DNA from: Maricaulis sp.
GTDB taxonomy: Bacteria > Pseudomonadota > Alphaproteobacteria > Caulobacterales > Maricaulaceae
Direction: 5' to 3'
Length of the DNA stretch: 34,092 nt
NCBI RefSeq assembly: GCF_030149235.1
Contig: NZ_JASBRW010000006.1
Span: 1 to 34,092, forward strand
In this document: one piece after another, positions 3,126 to 32,304 of the stretch
Layout: every line of letters starts with the position of its first letter
Numbering within the stretch: position 1 is the first letter of the stretch
The notes under the pieces: generated by a model
The model's input: only the letters and a program-made list of their open reading frames with translations
Database searches by the model: none
What the model was told of the DNA's origin: nothing
Position numbers and translations under genes: made by a program

Positions 3126-3743
3126 ATGAGCGAAACGGACAACAACCCGGCACCGGAAGCAGACGCTGCAGACGCTGAAGTGGAAACAGAAGCCGCTGAA
3201 GCTGCTCCGGAAGGCAAAACCGTCGAACAGCTGGAAGCCGAGCTGGACGATTTGCGTGACCGCCTTCTGCGCGCCGTCGCAGAAGAACAGAACACGCGCC
3301 GCCGCGCCGACAAGGAAAAGGCCGACACCCGGGCCTATGCCATCACCGGATTTGCCCGCGACATGCTCGATGTCGCCGACAACCTGTCTCGCGCCGTCGC
3401 GGCGGTAGACGAGGCCAGCCTGGCAGAGGCCTCGCAACCGCTGAAAAACCTGGTCGAAGGCGTCGCCATGACCGAGCGGGCCCTGCTGTCGAAAATGGAA
3501 AACCACGGCATCAAGCAAGTGGCCCCCGAGCCAGGCTCGGCATTCGATCCCAACCTGCACCAGGCCGTGGCACAGATCCCGTCGGATCAGCCGGCAGGGA
3601 CAATCGCCGCCGTCATGCAGACCGGTTTCGTGATCTCCAGCCGCACTTTGCGGGCGGCCATGGTTGCCGTTTCCGCCGGAGCTCCGGCTGGCGGCGACAC
3701 ACCATCGGGTGAAACCGGCGGCAATGTCGACCTCAAGGCCTGA
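3126..3743 (+). CDS. grpE: Nucleotide exchange factor GrpE
   Basis: This 205-residue protein is the nucleotide exchange factor that releases ADP from DnaK. The first 35 residues are acidic and low in complexity. A long coiled coil follows (VEQLEAELDDLRDRLLRAVAEEQNTRRRADKE). Then come FARDMLDVADNLSRAV, MTERALLSKMENHGI and the C-terminal beta domain FDPNLHQAVAQIP with ISSRTLRAAMVAVS, which binds the DnaK ATPase domain. It lies 21 bases after hrcA and is probably in the same heat-shock transcript. Its partner dnaK is 3.3 kb downstream in a separate unit. Confidence 0.96.
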   Translation: MSETDNNPAPEADAADAEVETEAAEAAPEGKTVEQLEAELDDLRDRLLRAVAEEQNTRRRADKEKADTRAYAITGFARDMLDVADNLSRAVAAVDEASLAEASQPLKNLVEGVAMTERALLSKMENHGIKQVAPEPGSAFDPNLHQAVAQIPSDQPAGTIAAVMQTGFVISSRTLRAAMVAVSAGAPAGGDTPSGETGGNVDLKA

Positions 3744-22560: not shown

Positions 22561-22634
22561 TCTGCCTTTCAGGTCTGGTCCTTGAGGGTCTGCCTGATTA
22601 CATGACAGGCGAAGCGATACAAACAAGAGCGATC

Positions 22635-23942
22635 ATGACCGATTTTTCTCCGCGCGAAATTGTCTCCGAACTCGACCGTTTCATCGTCGGCCAGGGCGAT
22701 GCCAAGAAGGCCGTGGCCCTGGCGCTGCGCAATCGCTGGCGGCGCAAACAGCTCGAGGCGGACCTCGCCGAGGAAGTGACACCGAAGAATATCCTCATGA
22801 TCGGGCCGACCGGCGTCGGCAAGACCGAAATCTCGCGCCGACTGGCGAAGCTGGCCAAGGCGCCCTTCATCAAGATTGAGGCGACCAAGTTTACCGAGGT
22901 CGGCTATGTCGGCCGCGATGTCGACCAGATCGCCCGTGACCTGGTTGAGGTGGCCATTCATCTCGTGCGCGAGCGCAAGCGCGACGAGGTCAAGGCCCAG
23001 GCCGAGGCCCACGCGGAAGAGCGTGTACTCGATGCCCTCGTCGGCCCCGGCGCGGGCGAATCCACCCGTGACTCGTTCCGCAAACGCCTGCGCACTGGTG
23101 AGCTGAACGACAAGGATGTGGAGATCCAGCTCGCCGAAGCCGGCGGTTCGCCACTGCAAATGCTCGATATTCCGGGCATGCAGGGCGGAGCGGGTGTGCT
23201 CAATCTGGGGGACCTGTTCGGCAAGGGCTTCCCGCAACAGACCAAGACCCGCCGCATGAAGGTCAAGGATGCCTATGAGCCGCTGGTCGCGGAAGAAGCC
23301 GACAAGCTGCTCGACGACAGCCAGATCACCGCTGAGGCGATCAAGCTGGCGGAGAATGAAGGCATTGTCTTCCTCGACGAGATCGACAAGATCGCCGCGC
23401 GCTCCGAAGCCCGCGGTGCCGATGTTTCACGTGAAGGCGTGCAGCGCGACCTGCTGCCGCTGATCGAGGGCACGACGGTCACGACCAAGCACGGAGCGAT
23501 CAAGACCGACCATATCCTCTTCATCGCCTCGGGCGCTTTCCACGTCGCCAAACCGTCGGACATGCTGCCGGAGCTGCAAGGCCGCCTGCCCATCCGGGTC
23601 GAGCTCACAGCCCTGACCAAGGATGACTTCAAACGCATCCTTACCGAGCCGGAAGCCAATCTGGTCAAGCAATATACCGCCCTGATCGGCACTGAGGGCG
23701 TAACCCTCAACTTCACCGATGATGCCATCGACGCGATTGCCGAACTGGCGGCGGAAGTAAACGCCTCGGTGGAGAATATCGGCGCCCGCCGCCTGCAGAC
23801 GATCATGGAGAAACTGGTCGAGGAGATTTCCTTCACCGCGTCCGATCGTGCAGGTGAAGTCATTGAAATCACCGCCGATTATGTCCGCGAGAATGTTGGC
23901 GAACTGGCCAAGAACGCGGATCTGAGCAAGTTTATCCTCTGA
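22635..23942 (+). CDS. hslU: ATP-dependent protease ATPase subunit HslU
   Basis: This 435-residue AAA+ unfoldase feeds substrates to Hsl[34 protein letters not shown] opens the protein. Walker A is GPTGVGKT at 57-64 and Walker B is [11 protein letters not shown]. The intermediate domain lies between, and the C-terminal sensor II region ends in LSKFIL, the tail that docks into HslV. The ATG at 22635 gives the normal N terminus; the frame opens 11 codons earlier at 22602. Its coding sequence contains a parS-like site at 23423-23438. It is convergent with smr. Confidence 0.95.
23423..23438. other. Weaker parS-like site inside hslU
   Basis: The 16 bases here match 13 of 16 positions of the parS consensus. 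The TGTTTCACGTGAA part is intact and only the last three bases differ (GGC). It encodes part of the sequence DVSREG in HslU. It is 2.0 kb from the better parS, and clusters of several parS sites near origins are common. Confidence 0.45.
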
Positions 23943-24056
23943 TTTCTGGCGGCGGATTGGCGGTATTACCCGGTAGGACCGAGGAGCCGCCGCGTCCGGG
24001 CCGGCACCGGCCCAGCGCGGCTCAACAGCCAAGCAAAGCTTCGCAGTCGATCCGCG

Positions 24057-24656
24057 CTACTTCACGCGTAACGTCACGTAAAACGCACCCGCACCGCCAT
24101 GCCGGGTGTGGGCGCTCGAATACCCTGACACATATTGACGCAAATTAGGTTTTCCCAACCATTCCGGTAGCTTCCGCCGAAGTACGCCGGGCAAGTCCGG
24201 GTATTCCCACGGCTCGTGGTCGCGCTCCCTGGTCCGGCTCATCGCGCCCTTGCCGGTGATCACCAGCACATTGCGATAGCCATCCTTCCAGGCCATGGCG
24301 AGGAAATGGGTCAGCGTCGACAGGGCCTGCTCCTGGGTCAGGCCGTGCAGGTCGAGACGCGCATCGATGTCGAGCTTGCCACGACGCACGCGTTTTTCTG
24401 TCGATCGGTCGACAGGGACCGGCGCCTGGAGATGTCGGGTCTGGTGATGCACGTCCACCGAGGCGCGATGCTTGACAGGCTGGGGCTTTTTGGCTGGTGC
24501 GGGATTTGACGGTTTGGCCTTCGCCGGTTTCGCAGCGGACGCGATCGTCTCGTCATTAAGCGAGCGGGCCTTGGCGGCATCGATAGGCTTTACCGAGCGA
24601 GCCACCTTGCGCCAGATGGCCTTTTCTTCCGGCTGGAGATCACGCTTGCGGACCAT
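24057..24656 (-). CDS. Smr domain protein (MutS2 C-terminal-like)
   Basis: This 199-residue protein has a basic, Ala/Pro/Lys-rich N-terminal half and a C-terminal Smr domain. The domain signature is ARLDLHGLTQEQALSTLTHFL, VLVITGKG and TRHGGAGAFYVTLR. Smr domains bind or nick branched DNA or cut RNA. The stand-alone role in alphaproteobacteria is not settled. It starts three bases after the mltA stop, so it is the last gene of a tim44-like/mltA/smr run. The end faces hslU with a 114-base gap in which I see only an imperfect GC-rich stem (about 23982-24022). Confidence 0.9.
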   Translation of the reverse strand: MVRKRDLQPEEKAIWRKVARSVKPIDAAKARSLNDETIASAAKPAKAKPSNPAPAKKPQPVKHRASVDVHHQTRHLQAPVPVDRSTEKRVRRGKLDIDARLDLHGLTQEQALSTLTHFLAMAWKDGYRNVLVITGKGAMSRTRERDHEPWEYPDLPGVLRRKLPEWLGKPNLRQYVSGYSSAHTRHGGAGAFYVTLRVK

Positions 24657-28565: not shown

Positions 28566-29404
28566 GCGCTTTCGCCCAGCGCCGCCAGAAGCGGCGTGCG
28601 GACATCCACGTTAGGTGCCGGTTGCCCGTAAAAGGCTTCAAAACTCGGCTTGCCCTGCTCGATCAGCATGCCCAGCCCGTCCACCGTCTTGTGGCCCGCT
28701 GCGGCGGCCGTGCGCAGGAAACCCGTGATCAACGGGGAATAAACGCTGTCGGCCACGATCAGCGGTTTCGACGCGTGGGCGAAATCCATATCGAGCACGG
28801 GCTGGCCCGTCAGCCCCAGCGAGGTGGCATTGACGACAATGTCGACATCGCCGACGGCTTCGTCGCGCCCGTCCCAGCCGACAATATCCGCCTTGGGCGC
28901 GATCCGGTCGCGCAGGGCCTCGGCTCGCTGGCGGTTGCGATTGGCGATGACGATGGAAGACGCCCCCGCCTCCACCAGGCCATAGACGATGGATCGCGCC
29001 GCTCCGCCGGCGCCCAGGACCAAGACCCGCTGACCCGCCGGGTCCCCGCCAGAGGCTTTCAGAGATCCGATGAAACCGGGCGCATCGGTATTGTCCGCAT
29101 GCACTTCACCGTCCGAGAATGTCAGTAGGTTGGCAGCACCGATCGCGTCCGCCCGATCTGAAATTCTATGAGCGATGACAAGAGCTTGCTCTTTATGCGG
29201 CAGTGTTACGTTGAGACCCTTTAACCCCGCGCGCTGCAGGGCCAGAGCCACCGGAGCGAACATGTGCGGCGAGGCAATGTAGGGCGTGTAGATCGCATTC
29301 AATCCCGCCGCCTCGACCCAGTGGGCCATCATCAGGGGCGAAAGGGAATGACCGATCGGTTGGCCGATTACGCCAGCGGTCAGGGCAGCTCCGGTCGGCT
29401 TCAT
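28562..29404 (-). CDS. aroE: Shikimate dehydrogenase
   Basis: This 280-residue enzyme reduces 3-dehydroshikimate to shikimate with NADPH in aromatic amino acid synthesis. The substrate site is seen in IGHSLSPLMMAHW, NVTLPHKEQAL with the catalytic lysine, and NTDAPGF. The NADPH domain has LVLGAGGAARSIVYGLVEAG and VIANRNRQRAEAL. The end, LGMLIEQGKPSFEAFYGQPAPNV, is typical. It overlaps maf and coaE by four bases on each side. Confidence 0.96.
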   Translation of the reverse strand: MKPTGAALTAGVIGQPIGHSLSPLMMAHWVEAAGLNAIYTPYIASPHMFAPVALALQRAGLKGLNVTLPHKEQALVIAHRISDRADAIGAANLLTFSDGEVHADNTDAPGFIGSLKASGGDPAGQRVLVLGAGGAARSIVYGLVEAGASSIVIANRNRQRAEALRDRIAPKADIVGWDGRDEAVGDVDIVVNATSLGLTGQPVLDMDFAHASKPLIVADSVYSPLITGFLRTAAAAGHKTVDGLGMLIEQGKPSFEAFYGQPAPNVDVRTPLLAALGESA

Positions 29405-29991
29405 GATACCAGCACCTTCTTATCGCGCAGCACATCCAATAGTGGAATGAGTGGCAGGCCGAGCACGGCGAAATAGTCAGCCTCGACTTTTTCGAATAAT
29501 TGCGCGCCCAAGGCCTCATAGGCATAGGCGCCGACGCTCGCGGTCAGTTCGAACCCCGCTTGATCGAGATAGAAATCCAAGAAGGCATCGGAGAAGTTAC
29601 GCACATGCAGGGTCGAGGTCTGCTGGTGGGTCCAGACTTCGCGGCCATCGCAGCACAGTGACAGGCCGGAATGGAGATAATGTACCTTGCCCCGCATGGC
29701 CATCAGGCGGTCGCGGGCCAGGGAACGCTCGGGCAGTTTGTCGAGCAATTGCCCGTCCAGTTCCATGGTCTGGTCGGCACCCAGAACATAGGCTCCGGCG
29801 ATTTGCGACGAGACGTCTTGCGCCTTGGCGTGGGCGAGGAGGGCGGCCATGTCGCGGGGGGACAGTGCAGCATGCTCACGCTTGAGGATATCTTCGTCGA
29901 CACCGGATTTGTGCACCCGGAAAGGCACGCAGGCCTGTTCGAGCACTTGCCGCCGGATCGCGCTTCCGGAAGCGAGAACGAATTCTGTCAC
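29401..29991 (-). CDS. maf: Maf-family nucleotide pyrophosphatase
   Basis: This 196-residue protein is a Maf/YceF-type nucleoside triphosphate pyrophosphatase, thought to clear modified or non-canonical nucleotides. FVLASGSAIRRQVLEQACVPF is the N-terminal nucleotide-binding motif, ADQTMELDGQLLDKL the metal-binding region, and GKVHYLHSGLSL with YAYEALGAQLFEKVEADYFAVLGLP the C-terminal part. Which base it prefers cannot be told with confidence. It is second in the ppsR operon, with four-base overlaps. Confidence 0.92.
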   Translation of the reverse strand: MTEFVLASGSAIRRQVLEQACVPFRVHKSGVDEDILKREHAALSPRDMAALLAHAKAQDVSSQIAGAYVLGADQTMELDGQLLDKLPERSLARDRLMAMRGKVHYLHSGLSLCCDGREVWTHQQTSTLHVRNFSDAFLDFYLDQAGFELTASVGAYAYEALGAQLFEKVEADYFAVLGLPLIPLLDVLRDKKVLVS

Positions 29992-30830
29992 GCGCCTTTG
30001 CTCCGCTTGTCGTTGAAAAGGTTGATGATCTTGGCCGCGGTCTCTTCCACCGACCGGCGCGTCACATCAATCGACGACCAGCCATGCTTGGCGAAAAGCC
30101 GCTTGGCATGCAGAACTTCCTCACGCACGGAGTAATCGTCGACATAGTCGGTATCGCGTTCCTCATTGAGGCTCAAAAGCCGGTTGCGGCGGATCTGGAC
30201 AATCCGTTCCGGCGAGGCAGTGAGCCCGACCACCAGCGGGTTTTTCAGCGAATAGACCTGTTCCGGCAGCGGCACGCTCTGCACCAGCGGGATATTGGCG
30301 GCGCGATAGCCACGATGCGCCAGATAGATCGAGGTCGGGGTTTTCGAGGTCCGGCTGACACCCAGGAGCAGGATGTCGGCGCTTTCGAAATCCTCACCCT
30401 GACCATCATCATGGGCCATAGTGTAGTTCAGCGCCTCGATGCGGCGGAAATATTCGGCATCGAGCGAACGCTGGGCCCCGGCGCGGCTGGCCACCGGACG
30501 GCCGAGATAGGCGCTCAAGGTCGCCAGCATCGGATCCAGCACCGCGATCGCCGGCGTCCCCAGCTCCATGCAACGCGTCTCCAATTGTCGCCGTAGATCC
30601 GGATTCACGATGGTATACATGACGATACCGGGATAGGCAGCGATCTCGTCGAGAACGTGATTGAGCTGGCGGGTCGAGCGCACCAGGGCGTAAAGATGCT
30701 CGAGCGGGTTGGCGCCTTCGAACTGGGCCACCGAGGCGCGCATCACCTCCATCAAGGTCTCACCGGTCGAGTCAGAGACCATGTGAATGTGGAAATTGGT
30801 CTCGAAGACGGGAGTTTCAGCGTCGGTCAT
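29988..30830 (-). CDS. ppsR: PEP synthase/PPDK regulatory kinase-phosphorylase (DUF299)
   Basis: This 280-residue protein belongs to the DUF299 regulators that phosphorylate, with ADP, and dephosphorylate a threonine of pyruvate phosphate dikinase or PEP synthase. HIHMVSDSTGETLMEVMRA is the N-terminal signature, and ILLGVSRTSKTPTSIYLAHRGYRAANIPLV contains the P-loop-like GVSRTSKT. YVDDYSVREEVLHAKRLFAKHGW and IDVTRRSVEETAAKI close the protein. The gene is the first beside the predicted origin, as in Caulobacter, and a CtrA-like site lies 18 bases upstream of its start codon. It leads a five-gene overlapping operon. Confidence 0.93.
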   Translation of the reverse strand: MTDAETPVFETNFHIHMVSDSTGETLMEVMRASVAQFEGANPLEHLYALVRSTRQLNHVLDEIAAYPGIVMYTIVNPDLRRQLETRCMELGTPAIAVLDPMLATLSAYLGRPVASRAGAQRSLDAEYFRRIEALNYTMAHDDGQGEDFESADILLLGVSRTSKTPTSIYLAHRGYRAANIPLVQSVPLPEQVYSLKNPLVVGLTASPERIVQIRRNRLLSLNEERDTDYVDDYSVREEVLHAKRLFAKHGWSSIDVTRRSVEETAAKIINLFNDKRSKGA

Positions 30831-30848
30831 CGCAGCGGCCTGAGCGTG

Positions 30849-30863
30849 TTTACCATTTGTTAA
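30849..30863. promoter_or_regulatory. CtrA-like binding site beside oriC
   Basis: TTTA at 30849-30852, seven bases (CCATTTG), then TTAA at 30860-30863 differs by one base from TTAA-N7-TTAA. It also reads as TTTACCAT, close to the half-site TTAACCAT. It sits between the ppsR start and the DnaA-box cluster, where CtrA could both silence the origin and control ppsR. Confidence 0.6.
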
Positions 30864-30936
30864 TAAGTTGGGGAGTTTTCCTCAATCTCCGCAAGCGGAA
30901 ATTCCGCCTGTGGGTATGACCCGGTCCTACCCGACC

Positions 30937-30957
30937 TCATCCACAGAGTCTTCCACA
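30937..30957 (+). promoter_or_regulatory. Two tandem DnaA-box-like sites
   Basis: TCATCCACA at 30937-30945 differs by one base from the DnaA box TTATCCACA, and TCTTCCACA at 30949-30957 differs by two. They are 12 bases apart in the same orientation. Further weak boxes on the opposite strand lie at 30909-30917 and 30969-30977, each with two mismatches. A GAGTC methylation site lies between the two tandem boxes. Confidence 0.6.
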
Positions 30958-31016
30958 GTTCGGGCCTGTGTGTACAAGCCTGTGAACAGAAAAACCTGTG
31001 GACGGCACTGTGCGAG

Positions 31017-31036
31017 TTATGCACCGCTTATGCACA
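31017..31036 (+). promoter_or_regulatory. Phased DnaA-box-like repeats
   Basis: TTATGCACC at 31017-31025 and TTATGCACA at 31028-31036 are direct repeats 11 bases apart, with two and one mismatches to the DnaA box. A related TTATAC starts 12 bases later at 31040. One-turn spacing would let DnaA molecules line up on one face of the helix. Confidence 0.55.
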
Positions 31037-31189
31037 AGCTTATACTTCACAGCCCTATGATATTCATAGACGAATCCGGTTATCCGGTTTTTCCTGTCAG
31101 TAGTTGTCCAGAGGCTTTGAGCGCGGCAGGATTATCCGGACCCTGAGGGAAAACAACCTTCCCCCGAGATTCACGGCTCAACGACTCCA

Positions 31190-31224
31190 ACAATTTTTTC
31201 TTTCTTATTTAGAGAGATGAAAAG
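31190..31224. other. AT-rich tract, possible DNA unwinding element
   Basis: The tract from 31190 to 31224 includes a T-rich run (ATTTTTTCTTTCTTATTTAG) and then AGAGATGAAAAG. It is strikingly AT-rich in this GC-rich chromosome. It is next to hemE on the side away from the CtrA site. It could be the duplex unwinding region of the origin, the hemE promoter, or both. Confidence 0.4.
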
Positions 31225-31237
31225 GACGCATTGAATT

Positions 31238-31253
31238 GGGGTGATAACACCCC
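31238..31253 (+). promoter_or_regulatory. Short perfect hairpin at the hemE start
   Basis: GGGGTG and CACCCC pair around ATAA at 31238-31253. It lies 13 bases before the ATG at 31267. If translation instead starts at the TTG at 31231, which has AAAGGA just before it, the hairpin is inside the first codons. It may tune hemE translation. Confidence 0.4.
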
Positions 31254-31266
31254 TAATCAGACGCTC

Positions 31267-32304
31267 ATGAGTGATGCTATCGAAAAGCCGCTTCTTGCGG
31301 TCCTGAGCGGCGAGCGCCGTACCCCGCCTCCGGTCTGGATGATGCGCCAAGCCGGTCGTTACCTGGCCGAATACCGGGAAGTCCGGGCCAAGGCCAAGAA
31401 CTTCATCGATTTCTGCTTTTCGCCTGATCTGGCAGCGGAAGTCACGCTCCAGCCCATTCGCCGGTTCGGCTTTGATGCAGCGATCATATTCGCCGACATC
31501 CTGCTGGTCCCGATCGCCCTGGGCCGCAAAGTCTGGTTTGTCGCCGGTGAAGGACCCAAACTCGATCCCTTCGACGTCTCGCTGGTCGATCAGCTGACGG
31601 AAGGGCAATCGAGAACCGTGTTGGCGCCGATCGCAGAAACCCTTCGCCGTGTGAAGCCGGAGCTACCCGGTCATACCACGCTGATCGGCTTTGCCGGTGC
31701 ACCGTGGACGGTTGCGACCTACATGGTCGAGGGCGGAGGCTCCAAGGACCGGTTCAAGACCCGTGTGGCGGCCTGGGATCAGGCGGATCACTTCGACGCC
31801 ATGCTCGACAAGATCGCCGATGCGACTATCGATTATCTCGTCATGCAGGCTGAGGCCGGTGCGGATGTGCTGAAAATCTTCGACAGCTGGGCTGAAGGTC
31901 TGCCTGAGCCGCTGTTCGAGCGCGTTATCATCCGCCCGACCCGCCGCATTGTCGAAGGCGTCCGTGCGGCCGGGGTGACGGTGCCGATCATCGGTTTCCC
32001 GCGAGGCGCCGGTACGCTGTATCCGCGTTATGCCGCAGAGACTGGCGTCACAGCGCTGGCGCTGGACACGGCGGTACAGCCGGAATGGATGCACAAGGCG
32101 CTTCCCGCGGATCTGCCGGTCCAGGGCCATCTCGACCCGGCCGCCTTGCGCGCTGGTGGCGAGGTCCTGGGTTCGGAGGTGGATCGCTTGCTGGATAGTT
32201 GGGCAGACCGGCCACATATCTTCAATCTGGGACACGGGATCACGCCGGACGTGCCTGTAGCTCATGTTGAAGCCATGCTTGCCCGGATCCGAAGCCGGGC
32301 CTGA
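31267..32304 (+). CDS. hemE: Uroporphyrinogen decarboxylase
   Basis: This 345-residue enzyme removes four carboxyl groups from uroporphyrinogen III to give coproporphyrinogen III in haem synthesis. PPPVWMMRQAGRYLAEYREVR is the N-terminal active-site signature. IIFADILLVPIALG carries the catalytic aspartate, and GFAGAPWTVATYMVEGGGS the active-site tyrosine. FDSWAEGL and the end NLGHGITPDVPVAHVEAML also fit. The ATG at 31267 gives a family-like start but lacks a ribosome binding site. The TTG at 31231 has AAAGGA upstream and would add 12 residues. It is the first gene on the other side of the predicted origin and leads hemE-hemH-hemJ. Confidence 0.96.
   Translation: MSDAIEKPLLAVLSGERRTPPPVWMMRQAGRYLAEYREVRAKAKNFIDFCFSPDLAAEVTLQPIRRFGFDAAIIFADILLVPIALGRKVWFVAGEGPKLDPFDVSLVDQLTEGQSRTVLAPIAETLRRVKPELPGHTTLIGFAGAPWTVATYMVEGGGSKDRFKTRVAAWDQADHFDAMLDKIADATIDYLVMQAEAGADVLKIFDSWAEGLPEPLFERVIIRPTRRIVEGVRAAGVTVPIIGFPRGAGTLYPRYAAETGVTALALDTAVQPEWMHKALPADLPVQGHLDPAALRAGGEVLGSEVDRLLDSWADRPHIFNLGHGITPDVPVAHVEAMLARIRSRA

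Follow-up and report, generated by a model that had tools for sequence, protein, structure and literature searches.

The chromosomal origin of Caulobacter, Cori, is described as lying between hemE and COG1806 and as carrying CtrA, DnaA and IHF sites (PMC1914354). Its DnaA sites are portrayed as a mixture of moderate G-boxes and very weak W-boxes (PMC4468827), which are defined as TGATCCACA and TCCCCA, respectively (PMC4285127). One of these accounts names the exclusion of DnaA by CtrA through steric hindrance as the simplest mechanism and adds that CtrA is also used at the origins of marine Caulobacter, a use that probably evolved independently (PMC4468827). Weak-box, CtrA-controlled origins have already been described for Caulobacter (PMC4468827, PMC4285127).

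Here we analysed a stretch of 34,092 bp (the window), which is the whole contig of a draft genome (87 contigs, 2.76 Mb) and in which an earlier note had placed a probable chromosomal origin between ppsR and hemE. The 436-bp gap between these two genes is very probably the chromosomal origin of this alphaproteobacterium, which is probably a member of the genus Maricaulis, as judged from DNA sequence. We hold this view because the GC-skew minimum of relatives and an enrichment of DnaA boxes, both of which support the earlier proposal, coincide with the least stable DNA of the window.

Setting of the gap

The gap spans positions 30831-31266, and its flanking genes diverge. On the left is ppsR (DUF299/COG1806; 29988-30830, minus strand), which scored 326.6 bits against NCBIfam NF003742 (cut-off 225), and on the right is hemE (31267-32304, plus strand), which scored 379.3 bits against TIGR01464 over 31231-32304 (cut-off 302.95). 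These profile scores confirm what the earlier note had called the Caulobacter position, with ppsR and hemE transcribed away from each other. Beyond ppsR lie a Maf-like gene, whose score was under its cut-offs, aroE, coaE and dnaQ; beyond hemE lie hemH and a HemJ-like gene, whose score was under its cut-off. The best named HemE matches were in an alphaproteobacterial metagenome-assembled genome (MAG; 77%) and two Oceanicaulis MAGs (62%). The list of open reading frames (ORFs) began hemE at TTG 31231. We rejected this start, which is not conserved, and took the ATG at 31267 instead because in 13 of the 19 genus genomes a stop interrupts the upstream TTG frame before the ATG. In a plasmid search, 23 records matched, but none of them spanned 80% of the query.

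To describe conservation we used a genus set of 19 genomes (G000 to G018, our own and 18 relatives). The ppsR gene was upstream of hemE in all 30 loci examined (our own, 18 from the genus and 11 others), a count that excludes 29 further hemE places that gave no locus. Among wider alphaproteobacterial loci, ppsR was beside hemE in 20 of 25, and five were without ppsR within 2 kb.

GC skew around the gap

The earlier note held that the skew should switch at the gap, and it did so in all four relatives that were finely sampled. Cumulative skew minima were computed over contiguous 120-160 kb around the orthologous gap in four of the 18 relatives: G015 and G009 (chosen as single contigs) and G005 and G001 (chosen for their long contigs). 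The minima fell 0 to 1.8 kb from the gap. In G009, the minimum (3,032,617) was inside the gap (3,032,564-3,033,016). It was about 70 bp off in G005 (243,530; gap 243,028-243,461), about 250 bp off in G001 (569,550; gap 569,802-570,274) and 1.8 kb off in G015 (3,258,810; gap 3,256.6-3,257.1 kb), where the sign changed between the 5-kb bins 3,252-3,257 kb and 3,257-3,262 kb.

At the scale of the chromosome, 20-kb samples of G015 (3,368,780 bases) showed positive skew in 10 of 10 cases from 0 to 1.53 Mb and negative skew in 9 of 10 from 1.68 to 3.21 Mb, with the sample at 2.352 Mb being about zero. The opposite switch was located at 1.53-1.68 Mb in G015 and at 1.33-1.57 Mb in G009, about half a chromosome from the gap. 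The skew is weak: contrary 5-kb bins were found in G015 (3,277-3,282 and 3,337-3,342 kb) and G009 (3,057-3,062 kb), and in G001 it was about zero over the last 20 kb. Our own window has a shallow minimum at 29,114, and the contig ends 2.8 kb beyond the gap.

Many bacteria have their origin beside dnaA, and our own genome is a draft, so the gap could be only a conserved regulatory region while the origin lies elsewhere. However, in both complete genomes of the genus, G015 and G009, dnaA is near base 500, which places it within the positive arm and some 110 kb away from the skew minimum; this led us to reject a dnaA-adjacent origin. Moreover, the dnaA locus of our own genome (3.5 kb, one strand scanned) had one box-like site with one mismatch. 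We regard an origin outside the gap as very improbable.

Sites of the parS type were present 8-13 kb from the gap, on the hemE side, in all four sampled relatives, with a few others elsewhere, in a scan that covered near-origin stretches only.

An array of weak DnaA boxes

All DnaA boxes had been described as degenerate, the best having one mismatch, and this held throughout the genus: the perfect box TTATCCACA was absent from the window gap and from all 19 genus gaps. Weaker sites were abundant. The window gap contains 2 DnaA-like sites at one mismatch (mean of 0.09 in 500 dinucleotide shuffles, reached by 2 of 500) and 10 at up to two mismatches (shuffle mean of 1.3, reached by 0 of 500). 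When the window was scanned in 436-bp stretches (step 50), the densest had 11 sites and started at 30701 and 30751, both overlapping the gap. The 19 genus gaps together held 24 boxes at up to one mismatch (2.5 expected) and 137 at up to two (27.6 expected, about fivefold), as scored by a consensus that comes from other species. The motif TCCACA occurred 56 times in these gaps compared with 5.9 expected, and the W-box TCCCCA showed little excess (9 versus 7.5 expected). The G-box TGATCCACA was absent from the window gap and found once in the 19 genus gaps (0.1 expected).

Box C (TCATCCACA, 30937-30945, plus strand) has one mismatch, and box D (TCTTCCACA, 30949-30957, plus strand) contains a TTTCCACA-like core that starts 102 bp from the start of a CtrA-like site. 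The box scan also gave the weak boxes TTGTACACA (30969, minus strand) and TTATGCACC (31017). Further along are TTATGCACA (31028), a weak box with one mismatch, and two weak box-like sites with two mismatches on the plus strand, TTGTCCAGA (31104) and TTATCCGGA (31132). Close to its end, the DnaA encoded by this genome carries the stretch GGRDHSTV, which we take to resemble the usual DnaA signature. The weakness of the boxes therefore seems to reside in the sites rather than in DnaA.

GANTC sites had likewise been listed as part of the origin. Four are indeed present in the window gap (30946, 31072, 31168 and 31183; 1.8 expected), but they are not conserved: the 19 genus gaps contain 19 where 35 were expected, and only G000 (four), G008 (three) and G010 (three) have three or more. 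Given this depletion, we rejected GANTC as a conserved feature of the origin. CcrM (GANTC) sites are not known to be conserved beyond close freshwater relatives.

A rigid block on the ppsR side

The CtrA-like site proposed earlier is present as TTTACCATTTGTTAA (30849-30863), with one mismatch to TTAA-N7-TTAA. In its 19-bp form, GTTTACCATTTGTTAATAA (30848-30866), it is unique in the genome and overlaps the DnaA-like box A (TTATTAACA, 30858-30866, minus strand). The composite GTTWACNNNNTGTTAAYAA was found exactly once per genome, always in this gap, in 18 of the 19 genus genomes, and with one mismatch in G016. This composite opens a block on the ppsR side of the gap that continues with a palindrome and a DnaA box; in the alignment of the 19 gaps, the conserved parts on this side were GTTWAC-N4-TGTTAAYAA, the palindrome and a TCCACA-type box. 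Boxes A and B read toward ppsR, and boxes C and D, whose starts are 12 bp apart, read toward hemE.

The spacing of these parts is strikingly constant. The distance from the CtrA-like site to the box was 102 bp in all 19 genomes, and a direct scan split it in 18 of them into 66 bp from the first site to the palindrome and a further 36 bp to the box. The other genome, G003, has its exact palindrome shifted by 10 bp (76 + 26) and a two-mismatch copy at the usual place; MAFFT put it out of register at the palindrome, and its spacing is taken from the direct scan. Over 110 columns and 19 sequences, the block had no gap characters, whereas the region from the block to hemE had 107 gap runs (26, 29 and 52 in three successive segments). 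Pairwise identity was 43% in the 41-bp spacer and 41% in the region after the box; outside the block, the median was 44%, with five pairs above 70%. The absence of gaps despite about 43% identity in the spacer thus indicates that length is kept where sequence is not. In an alignment of eight gaps from other genera, little of this layout was shared.

The gap could be the origin and the block nevertheless be the promoter region of ppsR, with box A acting as a -10 element and the palindrome as an upstream operator. The block sits on the ppsR side, TTATTAAC reads toward ppsR, and CtrA, like dimeric factors, usually acts as a transcription factor. Yet the distance from the block to the ppsR-proximal edge of the gap, taken as the aligned PpsR start, ranges from 14 bp, as in G002 and G005, up to 90 bp, and we saw no other conserved -10-like motif by eye. 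The fixed spacing points away from ppsR, to DnaA box D, and an operator found about once per genome suits a local role better than a regulon. We therefore consider this reading of the block unlikely.

A palindrome almost confined to the probable origin

The palindrome and its fixed spacing were absent from the earlier note. The 17-bp palindrome GTATGACCCGGTCCTAC (30914-30930; consensus GTANNACC-S-GGTNNTAC) is conserved in the genus gaps and is a putative operator for an origin-binding dimer. In 15 of the 19 genus genomes there is a single exact copy, always in this gap; the gap copies of G010, G015 and G016 have one mismatch and that of G004 has two. At up to one mismatch, the 19 genomes contain 35 sites; 19 of these fall in gaps, where G010 has two and G004 has none, and the other 16 lie outside them. 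A reversed control pattern had 238 sites at up to one mismatch and 6 exact ones. Away from the gap, the palindrome thus turns up less often than its control, which means that its words are uncommon here and makes the control an unfair yardstick of chance.

The left arm of the palindrome continues into TGTG.GTA, every column of which is conserved in 17 or more of the 19 genomes, and for this reason the weak DnaA-like box B (ATACCCACA, 30909-30917, minus strand) overlaps the palindrome. This overlap could indicate that the palindrome consists of two extended weak DnaA sites in inverted orientation (with a GGTNNTACCCACA-like half site) rather than being a separate operator, and degenerate second copies in some gaps (for example, G003, G009 and G010) fit such a pair. 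By eye, however, the right arm is without a continuation into a box in most genomes, and we know of no DnaA box that includes the GGT of the half site. A pair of DnaA sites is rather unlikely, and we favour a separate operator.

Of the 16 sites outside the gaps, 6 are no more than 12 kb away from the origin, 1 is at 210 kb and 9 are on other contigs. Five of the six near-origin copies seem to be coding: one in hemE of G008 (by position), two in the start region of a ParB-like gene (G005 and G004), one in G002 that its distance probably puts in the same region, and one in a transglycosylase-like frame of G001 (gene names here were assigned by eye). One-mismatch copies in the ParB-like start region are at about 12259 of L228 (G004), about 12003 of L215 (G005) and G002:C11:400812 (G002, by position), and these may merely follow the protein sequence. 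In our own window, a one-mismatch copy, GTATTACCCGGTAGGAC (23963-23979), is 7 kb from the origin and falls immediately past the end of the ORF at 22602-23942 and before the opposing ORF at 24057-24656. At up to two mismatches, we counted 20 sites in 384 kb near the origin and 6 in 560 kb distal to it, a near/distal ratio that ranked third of 180 permuted palindromes. Near-origin regions are orthologous, so these counts are not independent. A parS-like cluster of weaker palindromes around the origin was suggestive but was dropped.

Among 200 genomes of the order, the exact palindrome was found in 10 of 13 genus members and in 4 of 187 others (five sites); in G024, outside the genus, it is on a different contig from hemE. 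Of 31 gaps from outside the genus, six had the palindrome at up to three mismatches: G032 with one mismatch, 69 bp before hemE; G027 with copies at two and three mismatches; and G030, Oceanicaulis PBR18, Brevundimonas C12 and B. halotolerans with three each. We dropped the notion of a wider palindrome family beyond the genus. In three other genera of the family (G027, G030 and G032; loci L120, L116 and L121), we saw by eye a GTAAGACCGGG- or GTATGACCGGG-type sequence on the hemE side of the gap rather than toward ppsR, which could mean that the element has moved.

The AT-rich tract and a promoter-like element before hemE

The AT-rich tract that the earlier note had pointed out is the likely unwinding element (31185-31224) and was borne out by stability: in the whole window, stability is lowest in the 40 bp that begin at 31185 and, for stretches of 60 bp, in the one that begins at 31189. 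The next 40-mers, at 30849 and 31036, are also in the gap; among 60-mers the second (31039) is in the gap and the third (6797) is outside it. In 12 of the 19 gaps, the least stable 40-mer was 82-108 bp before hemE; in the remaining 7 it was in mid-gap, 222-260 bp ahead of that gene. The hemE-side tract is therefore the usual, not the universal, minimum. We omitted gap lengths measured from the side of the AT tract, as the anchor scan was mislocated in some gaps (for example, G006 and G015).

The BUS unwinding element is described as a DnaA box with DnaA-trios, with the box within 16 bp of at least three trios (PMC8287927). By eye, the C-rich spacer and the AAC/CTA run before the AT tract resemble it.

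A promoter-like element, TTGAAT-N17-TAATCA (31231-31259, plus strand), ends 7 bases from the ATG of hemE. The pattern TTGA-N19-TAANCA was found in 15 of the 19 genus gaps, 6-21 bases before the hemE match, and the box ends 6-9 bases before that match in 10 of 19. This proximity suggests a leaderless hemE message, and transcription may consequently start beside the AT tract.

A model for initiation

The location of the skew minimum in relatives, the enrichment of boxes, the conservation of sites, the near-uniqueness of the palindrome and of the CtrA-like site and the fixed spacing were observed directly; from them we infer the binding events, the order in which loading proceeds and whether each of the two regulators acts positively or negatively. 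DnaA would load cooperatively on the weak-box array in the ppsR-proximal half and then extend toward the AT-rich tract beside hemE, which would unwind. CtrA, bound at 30848-30866, would mask box A and so prevent loading in cells that are not replicating. A dimeric protein on the palindrome (30914-30930), overlapping box B, could provide a second input. Origins of the genus may have a lineage-specific dimeric regulator whose strong site, the palindrome, is present about once per genome and keeps a fixed helical position between the CtrA/DnaA composite and a DnaA box; this protein would compete or cooperate with DnaA on box B. We put this forward tentatively, as a possibility somewhat less likely than not. 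If true, two regulators would gate initiation from a single rigid scaffold of 110 bp.

The origin-specific regulators known so far are few, and the genera compared here differ in how their origins are laid out. A 17-bp palindrome that is almost origin-only and kept at fixed spacing from a CtrA-like site and a DnaA box in 18 of 19 genomes, with a 10-bp shift in the other, is a bait for such a regulator. The spacing of the block offers a handle on how an origin made entirely of weak boxes is assembled, and the natural 10-bp shift in G003 hints at a phased complex.

Comparison with known origins

In the origin of the Maricaulis strain MCS10, a single CtrA site reportedly overlaps a DnaA box that is critical, an arrangement that Shaheen et al. 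are reported to have tested by mutation in 2009. This overlap matches the composite site found here. None of the open-licence papers listed had a title on a Maricaulis origin, and we do not claim the block as unpublished.

Two Caulobacter gaps (L020 and L022) resemble ours in having a TGTGGATC-type box beside a TTAA-N7-TTAA site near ppsR, whereas a scan of three Caulobacter gaps for the palindrome, allowing up to three mismatches, gave no match. Cori is described as having five CtrA sites and two G-boxes; the window gap, by contrast, has one CtrA-like site at up to one mismatch and no G-box. The origins of Rickettsia and Wolbachia are similar in their hemE flank and their predicted DnaA and CtrA sites, as outlined in PMC1914354, but they belong to AT-rich genomes, and that of Wolbachia is flanked by COG1253 rather than COG1806 (PMC1914354). 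The gap is alike in layout to Cori of Caulobacter crescentus, for which the published descriptions give the same hemE/COG1806 position, weak DnaA sites, CtrA sites and a 40-bp AT-rich region (PMC1914354, PMC4468827, PMC4285127). The origin itself is of a known kind, and its novel part is the rigid block with an almost origin-only palindrome.
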